From the NCBI GenBank assembly GCA_022843845.1, contig JALHMW010000001.1, forward strand, positions 62,001-126,000: a DNA stretch of 64,000 nt. Reading direction: 5' to 3'. Positions 39,550-44,782 of this stretch are shown one piece after another. The notes under the pieces are model-generated. The model was not told where the DNA came from. It saw only the letters and a program-made list of their open reading frames with translations, and ran no database searches. The stretch comes from Archangium sp. Lineage in GTDB: Bacteria > Myxococcota > Myxococcia > Myxococcales > Myxococcaceae. Both the position numbers and the translations under genes were made by a program. The number at the start of each line of letters is the position of its first letter. Within the stretch, counting starts at the first letter, position 1.

Positions 39550-41100
39550 GTGCGATCCCTCGCAGCGCTGGTGGTGAGCGCCGTCGTCGCCGGCTGGTCA
39601 ACCGGCGCGATGGCGCAAGACGCGTCGGTCTCTGGCGCTGCTGCGCCCACCCCGATCTCGAAGAAGCGCCCCGAGGAGCTGTTCGAACTTCGGCTGCGCT
39701 ACGGCGTCGCCTACCGCACCGGGAGCCAGAGCGACGCCACGGGTCCAGGCCTCGGGTACGACGGCCTGACGCCGAATGATCCTGGGCTGCAAGGCTGGGT
39801 CTGGCCGCTCTTCGATGGGCTGCTCGGCTTCACCGCTGGAGTCTCTCGCGAGGGCTTCGCGCTGTTCGATCGCACCACCAACGCGCGGGTGACCGGCGGT
39901 GGGCTGGTTCGAGCCCACGGCGCGGCGACCGCTCGGTTCCGCCTCGGGCCTGTGCGCCTCGAGCCGATCGTCGGCTACTCGCTGAACCAGGTCGCGGAGT
40001 TCGCTGACTCCACCGCCCCCACCTTCCGCTCGGGAACGCGCCACGGCCTGCTGCTCGCGGCGCGCGGGCTCGTCGATCTGGGCCCCGTCACGATCGAAGG
40101 CCGCTTCGACTACCCGCTCTCGCTCGCGGCCACCGATGGCAGCGGCGCGCGGGCGACCTCCATGGGGTACCAGGCCGGCGGCGGCGTTCGGGTCGCCCTG
40201 CTCCGCACTGGCACGGCGCTGTGGGGCCTGATGATCGACGCCGCGTACTCGACCGATCGCCTCACCAGCACCATCGACGCGACCCAGCAGCACATTCGCG
40301 GCGGCCTCTCGCTCGACCTGCAGTGGAAGGAAGAAGAGAAGGCGGCCCAGCTCGCCGTGCTGAAGGTGAGCGTGGTGTTCGACGCCGATGGCGCGCCGGC
40401 ACCGAAGGCCCGCGTCGCCGTTCAAGGCGCGCCCGGCTCGCCGTCCCTCGACGAGACCGGCGCGGGTCGACTCGACGAGCTCCCGCCAGGCCCCGTCACG
40501 GTCCGCGCGACCCTCGACGGGTATGACGACGCCGAGGCCTCCACGACGCTGAGCGCGGGGACCGAAGCTCCCGTGGTGCTGCGGCTGAAGAAGCAGGCCC
40601 CGAAGGTGGGCAGTCTGATCGTCACGGTGATCGACAAGGAGACCGGCGCCGCGCTGGCAGGTGCGACGGTCGTCATCAACGGCGCGAGCGCGACCACCGA
40701 CTCGAGGGGCCTTGCGCGCTTCGCCGAACTCGCTCCAGGTGCCGTCACCGTCGAGCTCTCGGCGCCTGGCTTCACCGCGAAGACCGAGGCGGCCACCATC
40801 CTCCCCGGCCTCGAGGCCACCGTGAACACCGCGCTCGTGAGCGCGAAGCGGCGCGACCCGGCGACCGTGAGCGGGTTCATTCGCAGCGCCCGCGGAGGAG
40901 CCCCGGTCAAAGCGAACCTCGTCATCCCCGAGGCCAACATCAAGGCGAAGGCCGATGACAGCGGGAGCTTCGTCTTCCGCCTCGTTGGTGGCACCTATAC
41001 GGTGACCATCTCGGCGAAGGGCTTCACCACGCAAACCAAGCAGGTCACCGTGAAGGACGGCGACCAGGCCATCTTCAACGTCGATCTCCAGCCGAAGTGA
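39550..41100 (+). CDS. Outer-membrane barrel-like protein with carboxypeptidase-regulatory-like repeats
   Basis: A 516-residue protein with a signal peptide ending near GAMAQDAS. Residues of about 45-260 have alternating amphipathic strands with the aromatic-rich turns of a beta-barrel. Three carboxypeptidase-regulatory-like modules follow (cores VSVVFDADGAPAPKARV, VIDKETGAALAGATVV and SGFIRSARGGAPVKANL). The gene is the first of three that overlap: its stop and the next start share GTGA (41097-41100). The protein is likely at the outer membrane. The GTG start is the best fit to the promoter but has no ribosome site. Confidence 0.75.
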   Translation: MRSLAALVVSAVVAGWSTGAMAQDASVSGAAAPTPISKKRPEELFELRLRYGVAYRTGSQSDATGPGLGYDGLTPNDPGLQGWVWPLFDGLLGFTAGVSREGFALFDRTTNARVTGGGLVRAHGAATARFRLGPVRLEPIVGYSLNQVAEFADSTAPTFRSGTRHGLLLAARGLVDLGPVTIEGRFDYPLSLAATDGSGARATSMGYQAGGGVRVALLRTGTALWGLMIDAAYSTDRLTSTIDATQQHIRGGLSLDLQWKEEEKAAQLAVLKVSVVFDADGAPAPKARVAVQGAPGSPSLDETGAGRLDELPPGPVTVRATLDGYDDAEASTTLSAGTEAPVVLRLKKQAPKVGSLIVTVIDKETGAALAGATVVINGASATTDSRGLARFAELAPGAVTVELSAPGFTAKTEAATILPGLEATVNTALVSAKRRDPATVSGFIRSARGGAPVKANLVIPEANIKAKADDSGSFVFRLVGGTYTVTISAKGFTTQTKQVTVKDGDQAIFNVDLQPK

Positions 41101-43052
41101 TCCGACCCGCCCTCCACGCCCTCACGCTCGTCGCCGTGCTCCTCGCCGCGTGCTCGAGCGGGAGCAGCGACCCGACGCCTCCGACCGGCGGGGGCGGGGC
41201 TGCCATCAGCGATGCGGGAGCGCCGGCGCAGACGCCTGCCGCGATTCTCCAGCGCACGACGGGCACCGTGACGCTGACGCGCAAGGGCGCCACCACTCCC
41301 GCCAATCAAGGCCCGCTCTTCGACGGCGACGTGGTCGAGACCGCGGCCGAGAGCAACGCCGTGCTGCGCTTCCCAGACGGGCGCGAGCTCGAGCTCGGCG
41401 AGAACGGGCGAATGGAGCTCGGCAGCGAAGCCGACGGGCTGGTCCTGAACATCGGCCAGGGCGTCGTGGTCTCTCGTGTCGGAGGCTCGAGCGGTGAGAC
41501 GCTCCAGCTGAGCCTCGACACGCCCTACGGGCTCGTGCGCGTTGGCACGGGCGGCGTCTCGGTCAACGTCGGCAGTGACGAAGCGCTCATCGACGTGCTC
41601 GCGGGAGAAGTGACCCTCGTCGGTCGTGAGGGCGGCCCGCTCTCCCTCGAGGCTGGCGCTGAAGGGAGCCTGTCGAAGAAGGGCGCCAACCGGAAGGTGC
41701 GGCTGGAGCCGTTGACCATCGTGCTCGCGCGCGGCGGCGGTCGCGTCGAGGTGAAGAAGAAGGACGGCAAGGCCTTCGCCCCGGTGAACCCGAAGAAGTC
41801 CCCCACGCTCGCTGCCGGTGACAGCCTTCGAGTGGCGGGCGGGAGCGCCACCCTGACGCCCGACAAGAGCGACGCGAAGGTGACCCTCGTCTCGGGCACC
41901 GAGGTGGGCATCGGCGAGAGCGTCACGAAGGGCGGCTCGGAAGAGCTCGCGCTCGAGGTGAAGAAGGGGCAGCTCCAGCTCGCCCTGCCCTTCGGTAAGA
42001 AGCGCACGATTCGGCCTGGAGACGGCCTCTCGCTCGTCGCCGAGCAGGGCGGGCAGCTCACCGTGGTGAAGGCGAAGAACGGGCTCGAACTCAACTCCAT
42101 CGTCGGCGACGTGGTGGTCGAGACCGAGTCTGGCCAGAAGGTGACGGTCAAGGGCGGCCAGACGGCGACGCTCACCCGCGCTGGCATCGAGCCGCATGAC
42201 GTCTCGCGCGAAGCGCTCCAGCTGCCGACGAAGCAGGGCCTGAGGCTGCTGCACCCGGGCGCGGAGCGGGTCGCCCTGGTGTGGCCCGGCGACGACGACA
42301 AGGCCTACCGGGTGATCCTCGCGACGGACGCGGCGTTCGAGAAGCGGCTCGTCGACGGCATCGTGCATCAGACCTTCTTCAACACCGTGGCCCCGGCGCG
42401 CGGCGCGTTGTTCTGGCAGATCCTCGAGGGCGAGACCGAGCTCGGCAGGGGCTCGGTGTCGATCGCCGCGGAGCGCATCGGCGACGAGCTCGAGGGCATC
42501 ACCAACGTGGTGACCGCCGGCCCCGAGAAGACGGTCATCTACTTTCAGGACAAGCCCCCCGCGCTGACCTTCACCTGGAAGCCGCCCAACAAGCCCGTCA
42601 CCGAGTACCTGCTGAAGATCTACAGAGCCGGGAACCTCGCCGCGCCTCTGCTGGAGCGCCGCACCACCGCGACCTCGGCCCAGCTGCCCCTCGGCTCGGT
42701 GTCCGAGGGCACCTACCAGTGGGACGTCACCTGGCTCGACGAGAAGGGCACGCCGATCGGCACCGCAGGCAAGATGAACCAGCTCGAGCTCCAGTACGTC
42801 AACGCGGTGCGCGCGCTCATCATCAAGGCCCCGCGCAACGGCGACGCACCGGCGCCGAAGGTGGCCGTGTCGGGCATCGCTCCCATCGGCGTGAAGGTGA
42901 GCGCGAACGGCCAGCCGCTGACCCTCGACGCCAAGGCGCGCTTCTCGGGCCAGGTGGCGTTGATGCCCGGCTCCCGCGTCGTCTTCCGCGTCGTCGTCAA
43001 CGGCGTCGAGACGTACGTCGTGCGGTGGCTCGGGCGGGGCGGGTCGCGATGA
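41097..43052 (+). CDS. FecR-domain lipoprotein
   Basis: A 651-residue lipoprotein with lipobox LLAACSSG (C19). Residues of about 50-165 match the FecR domain pattern: VTLTRKGA, FDGDVVETAAESNAVL, RFPDGRELELGENGRMEL and a YGLVRVGTGGVSV core. A second, related stretch (from about residue 210) has further VTL and QLTVVKAKNGLELN segments, so the fold may be repeated. In Gram-negative cells FecR relays outer-membrane signals to an ECF sigma factor; here the next gene is a kinase. Starts and stops overlap by 4 bp on both sides, so the three products are probably made together. Confidence 0.85.
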   Translation: MIRPALHALTLVAVLLAACSSGSSDPTPPTGGGGAAISDAGAPAQTPAAILQRTTGTVTLTRKGATTPANQGPLFDGDVVETAAESNAVLRFPDGRELELGENGRMELGSEADGLVLNIGQGVVVSRVGGSSGETLQLSLDTPYGLVRVGTGGVSVNVGSDEALIDVLAGEVTLVGREGGPLSLEAGAEGSLSKKGANRKVRLEPLTIVLARGGGRVEVKKKDGKAFAPVNPKKSPTLAAGDSLRVAGGSATLTPDKSDAKVTLVSGTEVGIGESVTKGGSEELALEVKKGQLQLALPFGKKRTIRPGDGLSLVAEQGGQLTVVKAKNGLELNSIVGDVVVETESGQKVTVKGGQTATLTRAGIEPHDVSREALQLPTKQGLRLLHPGAERVALVWPGDDDKAYRVILATDAAFEKRLVDGIVHQTFFNTVAPARGALFWQILEGETELGRGSVSIAAERIGDELEGITNVVTAGPEKTVIYFQDKPPALTFTWKPPNKPVTEYLLKIYRAGNLAAPLLERRTTATSAQLPLGSVSEGTYQWDVTWLDEKGTPIGTAGKMNQLELQYVNAVRALIIKAPRNGDAPAPKVAVSGIAPIGVKVSANGQPLTLDAKARFSGQVALMPGSRVVFRVVVNGVETYVVRWLGRGGSR

Positions 43053-44782
43053 GCTCGCTCGACTCGCGGGCGCCACCGGGGCCTGTGCCGATTCGCAGCT
43101 ACGGCAAGTACTACCTCATCAGCAAACTGGCCGAAGGCGGCATGGCCGAGATCTTCCTCGCCAAGCAGGTCGGCGTCGAAGGCTTCGAGAAGAACGTCGT
43201 CGTCAAGCGCATGCTCGCGCACCTGTCGACGGCCAACGACTTCGTGGCGATGTTCCTCGACGAGGCGCGCCTGGCCTCGAGGCTCTCGCACCCGAACGTG
43301 GTGCAGGTGCTCGATCTCGGCTTCGAGGAGGGCTGCTACTTCATCGCGATGGAGTACCTGGCGGGCGAGGACTTCTCGACCGTGATTCGTTCGGCCGCGA
43401 AGCAGCGCACCTTCGTGCCGCTCAACATCGCGCTCAAGGTGCTGGCCGACGCCGCGCAGGGCCTGCACTACGCGCACGACTTCACCGACTCGAAGGGCCA
43501 GCCGCTCAACGTCGTGCACCGCGACGTGTCGCCGTCGAACATCTTCGTCACCTACTCGGGCCAGGTGAAGATGCTCGACTTCGGCATCGCCAAGGCCGAG
43601 TCGCGCGTCACCAACACGACGGCCGGCGTGGTGAAGGGCAAGTACCAGTACATGGCGCCGGAGCAGGCGCAGTCGCTGCCGGTCGATCGCCGCGCCGACG
43701 TCTATTCGTTGGGCGTCTGCATGTACGAGGCGCTGTGCAACGCGAGGCCCTTCGCGCGCGACACCGATCTCGCGATCTTGAACGCAGTGCTCAAGAACGA
43801 GTACCGGCCGCCACGCCAGCTGCGCCCCGATCTGCCGATCGAGCTGGAGCAGATCATCGTCAAGGCACTCTCTCGTGAGGCCGACGACCGGTTTCAGACG
43901 GCCGGGGAGTTCGCGGCGGCCATCGAGAACTACCTGAGGGCCTCGACGTCGGTGACGAGCGGCGCCGCGCTGACGACGTACATGACGAGCTTCTTCGGCC
44001 AGGAGCGGGTGTCGGCGAAGACGCGCATCGACTCGCTCGAGGACCTCAAGGCCAGCGGGGTGTCGCTGCCAGCGACGGAGAAGAAGGCGCCGTCGAACCC
44101 CTCGGGCCCGTCGGTCGCGACGCCCCAGATGCCGACGTCGGTGTCCCAACGCATCGACATCATCGTCGAGGGGGCGACCAACGCGGTCGGCGCGCCGAAA
44201 TCGGTGGTGGCGCAACGCCAGAAGAGCTCGGCGACGATGCTGATCGCGGTGGCGCTGGCGCTGCTCGTCGGGGTCGGCGGCACCTTCGCTGCCCTGAAGA
44301 GCAGCACGACGACGGTCGTCAATCCGCCCGTGCCCGATCGGCCGACCGTGGTTCCGCCCCCCATCGCCGTCCCGTCAGAGGTCGATGCGGGGCCGACCAT
44401 CGATGCCGGGCTCGTGGAGAAGCCCACCGGAACCGAGACCATCGACGCTGGAGCTCCGAGCCCGGTCCCCATACCCGTGCCTGACAAGAAGCCGCGGGTC
44501 ATCGTGCTGAGCACTCCCGTCATCTCGCAGGTGATTCGGCGCAACGCCGGGCCGGTGGTGCGTTGCTTTCAGGAGCACCGTGGCGATCTGCCGGGCCCGA
44601 GCGGCAAGGTCGACGTCACCATCACCATCGAGCGTTCGGGCAAGGTGTCGAGCGTCACCAGCCCGATGGCAGGCACCGGCGTGGGCAAGTGCCTCGAGGA
44701 GCGCCTCAAGCAGATCAGGTTCCCGCCACACGTCGACGAGTCGGTCAAAATCACCCTGCCCCTGAGCTTCAAGACCCAGTGA
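43049..44782 (+). CDS. Ser/Thr protein kinase with a C-terminal AgmX/PglI (TonB-like) domain
   Basis: A 577-residue kinase. The domain (about 18-300) has a glycine-rich EGGMAEIF loop, K53 in VVVKRM, E72 in LDEARLA, HRDVSPSN (157-164), DFG (177-179) and APE (203-205), so it looks active. A membrane segment lies at about 395-416, followed by a Pro/Ala/Val linker with Thr and Asp. The last 90 residues (from about 485) show the AgmX/PglI C-terminal domain: a VRCFQEH motif, KVDVTITIERSGKVSSV and a conserved cysteine pair (VRCFQEH and GKCLEERL). This domain is typical of TonB-like proteins and is periplasmic. The ATG at 43049 overlaps the FecR stop. Confidence 0.92.
   Translation: MSSLDSRAPPGPVPIRSYGKYYLISKLAEGGMAEIFLAKQVGVEGFEKNVVVKRMLAHLSTANDFVAMFLDEARLASRLSHPNVVQVLDLGFEEGCYFIAMEYLAGEDFSTVIRSAAKQRTFVPLNIALKVLADAAQGLHYAHDFTDSKGQPLNVVHRDVSPSNIFVTYSGQVKMLDFGIAKAESRVTNTTAGVVKGKYQYMAPEQAQSLPVDRRADVYSLGVCMYEALCNARPFARDTDLAILNAVLKNEYRPPRQLRPDLPIELEQIIVKALSREADDRFQTAGEFAAAIENYLRASTSVTSGAALTTYMTSFFGQERVSAKTRIDSLEDLKASGVSLPATEKKAPSNPSGPSVATPQMPTSVSQRIDIIVEGATNAVGAPKSVVAQRQKSSATMLIAVALALLVGVGGTFAALKSSTTTVVNPPVPDRPTVVPPPIAVPSEVDAGPTIDAGLVEKPTGTETIDAGAPSPVPIPVPDKKPRVIVLSTPVISQVIRRNAGPVVRCFQEHRGDLPGPSGKVDVTITIERSGKVSSVTSPMAGTGVGKCLEERLKQIRFPPHVDESVKITLPLSFKTQ

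Follow-up and report, generated by a model that had tools for sequence, protein, structure and literature searches.

A Myxococcaceae operon for an outer-membrane barrel protein, a FecR lipoprotein and a Ser/Thr kinase with a TonB-like tail, a candidate trans-envelope sensory kinase system

In the cell-surface signalling systems FecIRA and PupB-PupR-PupI, information passes from an outer-membrane barrel through the periplasm to the cytoplasm, a logic resembled by the operon described here. This operon lies in a 64,000-nucleotide stretch of Archangium sp. (GenBank assembly GCA_022843845.1, contig JALHMW010000001.1; the whole stretch is hereafter termed the window) and encodes an outer-membrane barrel protein, a FecR-domain lipoprotein and a transmembrane Ser/Thr kinase ending in a periplasmic AgmX/PglI (TonB-like) tail. 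FecR proteins encoded beside other signalling enzymes have been described in three settings: the Burkholderia BiofilmReg operon, with genes for a response regulator, a LysM-FecR protein and a CHASE2 histidine kinase (PMC5192318), the operon in which the M. xanthus FecR lipoprotein MXAN_2063 is encoded with the phosphodiesterase gene pmxA (PMC8844925), and a Campylobacterota cluster for a CHASE2 adenylate cyclase, a FecR outer-membrane protein and a TPR protein (PMC9239204). With an exported FecR protein and a predicted inner-membrane signalling enzyme, the operon of the window has the layout of this FecR-linked sensory enzyme type.

The three genes and the parts located within them below are on the plus strand. 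Gene 1 (39550..41100, 516 amino acids (aa), GTG start) encodes the barrel protein, gene 2 (41097..43052, 651 aa, GTG start) the FecR lipoprotein and gene 3 (43049..44782, 577 aa, ATG start) the kinase; the family alignments of the first two proteins hold 27 and 28 rows, respectively. The barrel stop and the FecR start share the motif GTGA and the FecR stop and the kinase start share ATGA, which bears out the 4-bp overlap at both junctions reported by the first-pass annotation. A kinase open reading frame start at 42281 was discarded as an over-extension in favour of the start at 43049. The overlaps recur: a barrel-FecR gap of -4 was found at 21 of 29 determinable loci and a FecR-kinase gap of -4 at 19 of 31, hand counts that are upper estimates because the starts were chosen closest to -4. 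The barrel, FecR lipoprotein and kinase genes form a real operon.

FecR homologues were detected in 31 of 60 relatives (E 0.001), and when 145 genomes of the class were searched with a profile, 83 of the same-family genomes, which number at least 95, gave strong matches (E <=1e-100) by hand count. The sole strong match outside the family came from genome G056, which carries all three genes (L055). A further scan yielded 42 loci, from records labelled with Myxococcaceae genera or families or with Myxococcales, bar one titled Comamonas: the barrel gene adjoined at 37/42, the kinase gene at 41/42, and the tail was encoded in the kinase open reading frame at 37/42, with every miss at a contig end. 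M. xanthus AM003 is represented among these loci (L112). Loci L031-L063 gave a similar picture, with the barrel matched at 31 of 33 and the kinase at 32 of 33, the misses again falling at contig ends; at L062 the kinase gene was about 2 kb downstream, and the third gene of L045 is a full kinase open reading frame. The three-gene set is thus near-universal in the soil-bacterial family Myxococcaceae, M. xanthus included. The flanking genes for RimO, isocitrate lyase and malate synthase are common to loci only inside the genus; because the surroundings change beyond the genus and the trio persists, linkage of the three genes is far beyond chance. Unlinking of the genes in relatives, which would have spoken against the first-pass annotation, was therefore not what the neighbourhoods revealed.

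Three observations accompany this survey. In the contig titled Comamonas sp. KCTC 72670 (L114, BNCN01000011.1) the operon is present and matches the Myxococcus-type FecR query at 82% identity; this record probably derives from a myxobacterium, through mislabelling or contamination. Four large, near-complete genomes of genus g11 (G016, G033, G115, G116) have no full-length FecR homologue, suggesting that the operon may have been lost in this genus. At L041 (G018:C777, 4447-6154) the operon kinase is split over two frames near codon 205, from either a frameshift or an assembly error.

The survey also yielded another 17 loci (L207-L223), most of them paralogous. All 17 have the barrel and 12/17 an adjacent kinase; L223 is cut, and the adjacent kinase of L216 is without a clear tail. 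At L222 (G021:C127) the place of the kinase 3' of FecR is taken by a repeat-like protein of 580 aa and by what may be an HD-domain protein, both named by eye.

The gene 3 protein carries a predicted cytoplasmic kinase domain (residues 15-310, 43091..43978; PF00069, 115.9 bits against a cut-off of 31.7), a single transmembrane helix at about residues 391-418 (44219..44302; hydropathy peaks with 2.42 at window 398, and only windows at 391-400 exceed 1.6) and the putatively periplasmic AgmX/PglI tail (residues 489-575, 44513..44773; NF033768, 56.1 bits against a curated cut-off of 40). Its reading by the first-pass annotation as a transmembrane kinase with a periplasmic AgmX/PglI domain is upheld by these profile and hydropathy predictions. 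The catalytic residues of eukaryotic-like Ser/Thr kinases (K53, E72, HRD D159, N164 and DFG D177) are invariant in 27/27 operon kinases. All 27 also match NF033768 at E 0.001 and retain the two tail cysteines, Cys 506 and Cys 548. The tail matches the C-terminus of GltJ with 36.5 bits and GltG with 24 bits, far from the equivalog cut-offs of 450 and 650; a sequence search of PDB with the tail gave no match. In the three genomes G000 (that of the window), G028 and G006, respectively 16, 12 and 22 proteins exceed the NF033768 cut-off and 85, 116 and at least 120 proteins match kinase profiles, yet only 1, 1 and 2 proteins are both, and every one is an operon kinase.

The gene 2 protein has a lipobox LAAC at residues 16-19 (41142..41153), whose Cys19 is invariant in 28/28 aligned homologues and is preceded by only 14-45 residues in all of them. 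Its solenoid domain (residues 75-202, 41319..41702) matches the Pfam family FecR (PF04773; 29.5 bits, cut-off 24), as do 26/28 homologues. The structural model (mean predicted local distance difference test (pLDDT) 84.2) aligns with PupR (6ovk_R) at Z 16.9 and a root mean square deviation (rmsd) of 2.1 over 127 residues, the first unrelated row of the VIA-align comparison standing at 8.9. Both profile and fold therefore agree with the earlier FecR assignment. Residues 111-239 are the sole part of PupR aligned to the model; the C-terminus of PupR carries an STN-like domain. None of the 28 homologues matched an anti-sigma domain family, and because of this and of the lipobox after 14-45 residues in every one, the window FecR is no anti-sigma factor. 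Fn3-like and Ig-like domains at the C-terminus (residues 469-648, 42501..43040) are among its best-conserved parts. In M. xanthus, lysine at the +2 position of lipoproteins is associated with the inner membrane and outer-membrane lipoproteins follow no rule (PMC3222651). The residue is Ser in the window, Asp at some Myxococcus-type loci and Lys at L060, and the lipoprotein of the window is most likely anchored in the outer membrane.

For gene 1, a signal peptide (judged by eye) and a short disordered stretch precede a predicted 10-stranded beta-barrel (residues 43-260, 39676..40329), followed by three CarboxypepD_reg or transthyretin-like domains (residues 265-516, 40342..41097; PF13620, 121 bits in 3 stretches). 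In the AlphaFold2 model (mean pLDDT 87.8, mostly 89-96 in the barrel block), residues 43-260 form about ten long strands, and three domains are beta-sandwiches. With VIA-align, from which a PDB family missing from the match list was not taken as excluded, the barrel aligned with OpcA (2vdf) at Z 21.6 and rmsd 2.1 over 192 residues, other outer-membrane barrels scored Z 17-20, and the sandwiches aligned with the transthyretin-like domain of carboxypeptidase D (5aq0) at Z 14.2 and rmsd 1.2. Sequence identity to the matched barrels is ~7-10%, and the match therefore indicates fold, not function. Among Pfam families only CarboxypepD_reg-type repeats matched gene 1: no barrel family did, and a TonB-dependent transporter with plug and signalling domain was found neither by Pfam nor in the model. 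Even-stranded outer-membrane barrels have both termini in the periplasm. Since the modelled strand number is even, the three transthyretin-like domains would be periplasmic.

The paralogous operons were compared with that of the window. The barrel part is 19-22% identical and the last transthyretin-like domain 41-57%, as would fit a sensor that varies while the relay behind it is conserved; identity is 30-42% over the initial part of the FecR domain and 32-40% over the last domain of the FecR protein. Genome G006 holds two such operons, A and B, and when the operon-B kinase was used as query, the operon-A kinase ranked only 125 of 146 by hand count, the reverse search giving rank 133 of 154. 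In a tree of 62 kinase domains, built by a quick method and with long branches, 32 operon kinases grouped in a single clade next to free kinases of type A, seven operon kinases of type B were interspersed with free ones of that type, and L217 fell elsewhere again, in a placement that is unsure. The FecR proteins of B-type operons are nested within those of paralogous operons. Tails of operon types A, B and C (39 rows) separated from 48 free tails with support 96/94 in a tree that left out L063 (cut at a contig end), L216 (tail unclear) and the free tail L237; once these three were included, L063 was placed among the free tails. These comparisons make it well supported that kinase domains from distant kinome branches have been coupled to operon tails while tail, FecR and barrel stay, and they favour the reading that different kinase domains were put on one inherited tail. 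The kinases of L218 and L219 carry HRDVKTDN. A degenerate second kinase-like region, seen by eye and in weak profile matches, precedes the active domain in B-type operon kinases (L218, L219, L061, L213).

The best explanation of these data, which we regard as somewhat probable, is a trans-envelope sensory kinase system. In this view the barrel would sit in the outer membrane with its transthyretin-like domains hanging into the periplasm, where the FecR lipoprotein would dock on them and act as a relay. A signal at the barrel, be it a ligand, contact or envelope strain, would alter the barrel-FecR complex. The kinase, spanning the periplasm by means of its proline-rich linker and AgmX/PglI tail, would read the state of this complex, and this reading would switch the cytoplasmic kinase domain on or off. 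Tail, FecR and barrel would thus constitute a conserved reader and the kinase domain an exchangeable output. The data establish the gene set, its linkage, the predicted folds, the catalytic residues, the restriction of the tail to operon kinases in three genomes and the diversity of kinase types among operon kinases; from these we infer the protein locations, the docking, the outside-in direction and a tail inherited once by the different kinase types. The wider proposal of a distinct class of signalling from outer membrane to cytoplasm throughout Myxococcaceae, in which a TonB-like tail reads a barrel and a FecR lipoprotein and a plug-in Ser/Thr kinase output has been exchanged at least twice with the reader kept, is plausible but tentative.

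Several observations weigh against a sensory kinase system. A strong full-length match is missing from 12 of about 95 same-family genomes (hand-counted). The kinase domain is better conserved than either the AgmX/PglI tail or the central portion of the FecR protein. The variation of the +2 residue makes outer-membrane anchoring not certain throughout the loci, and a tree with type-B tails among the free tails was not rejected (p-AU 0.262). Finally, four of the 17 further loci (L215, L220, L221, L222) have a barrel and a FecR gene with no adjacent kinase: at L215 the downstream DNA is present and holds none, at L220 none appears in the 2.5 kb seen downstream, and at L221 a kinase gene lies 4.4 kb on. 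The barrel-FecR pair can therefore do without an adjacent kinase. Such pairs (L215, L220 and L222) are what would be expected if the genes were co-transcribed without a shared function, the barrel and FecR proteins forming a complex of the envelope or cell surface with which the kinase is merely co-regulated. We nevertheless find this improbable, as the main lineage has the kinase adjoining wherever contigs allow, tailed kinases in the three genomes are operon kinases only, and other kinase domains appear to have been re-coupled in paralogous operons.

The tail might alternatively make a mechanical or structural link, tethering the kinase to the outer-membrane complex in the manner of GltG and GltJ for envelope linking, positioning or force coupling, with a signal that may even run inside-out, the kinase controlling that complex. 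The tail belongs to the family of those gliding proteins, which are thought to reach outer-membrane partners (PMC5349195, PMC3169522), and the similarity to GltJ and GltG reported above points the same way. The scores stay far from the equivalog cut-offs, however, the catalytic residues are conserved (27/27), and kinases of several lineages have been kept with these residues intact, more than a simple tether would require; we judge this link unlikely, if less so than co-transcription alone. A classical FecIRA-type system whose sigma factor was lost or displaced would account for the fold common to FecR and PupR. It is very improbable, its defining parts being already contradicted: the anti-sigma domain is found in 0/28 homologues, gene 1 has no TonB-dependent receptor domain, and no sigma factor gene occurs among the eight neighbour proteins scanned (34.0-49.5 kb of the window). 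The candidates TonB-dependent receptor, anti-sigma FecR and sigma-factor neighbour were dropped after the Pfam, homologue and neighbour scans found none.

The genome of the window (4.95 Mb) is incomplete (85.8% complete). A gene for a RimO-like radical-SAM protein lies 5' of the operon, and a convergent gene of no named product, an XRE-cupin regulator gene and those for isocitrate lyase and malate synthase lie 3' of it; a search of a plasmid collection gave no match. None of the other 7 FecR loci of this genome has a tailed kinase. One of them (L069) has an untailed kinase gene about 1 kb downstream of FecR. Another (L070, G000:C35, 6993-12105) encodes, head to tail with a small overlap or no gap, a FecR protein, an exported protein of 704 aa with Ig repeats, whose C-terminus may form a barrel as judged by eye, and a HAMP histidine kinase.

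Most genomes searched have 85 to 125 Ser/Thr kinase matches each, and to our knowledge the input of most such kinases is not known. On sequence evidence alone, the operon provides one of these kinases with a likely input module in the outer membrane, and it occurs in the genetically tractable M. xanthus. The paralogous operons offer a natural domain-swap series for locating the contact between tail and FecR. If the sensory kinase system is real, it would add signalling to transport and motility as a use of the TonB-like tail. The swapping of the kinase part with the outside tail kept suggests a so far undescribed signal path from the surface to a kinase.

With FecIRA and PupB-PupR-PupI the operon has the FecR solenoid fold in common (PupR Z 16.9). 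It differs from them in that no TonB-dependent receptor, anti-sigma domain or sigma factor was found and in that its FecR is a lipoprotein. The proposal of the first-pass annotation that barrel, FecR and kinase stand in for the transporter, FecR and sigma factor thus fits the gene set, but "replace" overstates the homology, since only the periplasmic FecR solenoid is common. GltG and GltJ of the Agl-Glt gliding machinery are likewise inner-membrane proteins with one transmembrane helix and a tail of the same family, paired with outer-membrane barrels; the cytoplasmic part is a kinase in the window and an FHA domain in GltG or other parts in GltJ.

Like the operon of the window, BiofilmReg has a gene for a periplasmic FecR protein beside that for a sensor kinase of the inner membrane that has a domain in the periplasm, and its cytoplasmic kinase parts vary among strains; unlike it, BiofilmReg has a histidine kinase and a response regulator, CHASE2 in place of the AgmX/PglI tail, LysM in place of a lipid anchor, and no barrel in the operon as described (PMC5192318). 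Pfam matched neither CHASE2 in the window kinase nor LysM in the window FecR. The pmxA operon also comprises three genes, for a FecR lipoprotein, a second exported protein and a signalling enzyme, with a LysM/Fn3 protein instead of the barrel and an HD-GYP phosphodiesterase instead of the Ser/Thr kinase (PMC8844925). In the Campylobacterota cluster a FecR-domain outer-membrane protein is similarly grouped with a sensory-domain adenylate cyclase, and the differences are the cyclase output, the CHASE2 sensor and the phosphodiesterase and TPR partners (PMC9239204). The earlier statement that no described system has this combination consequently stands in part: the open-licence papers searched, in which absence is weak evidence, gave no case of FecR paired with a Ser/Thr kinase that bears a TonB-like tail, and because FecR coupled to non-sigma signalling enzymes has already been published (PMC5192318, PMC9239204, PMC8844925), the principle is less new than had been held. 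The parts that are new here are the Ser/Thr kinase output, the TonB-like tail and the barrel partner.

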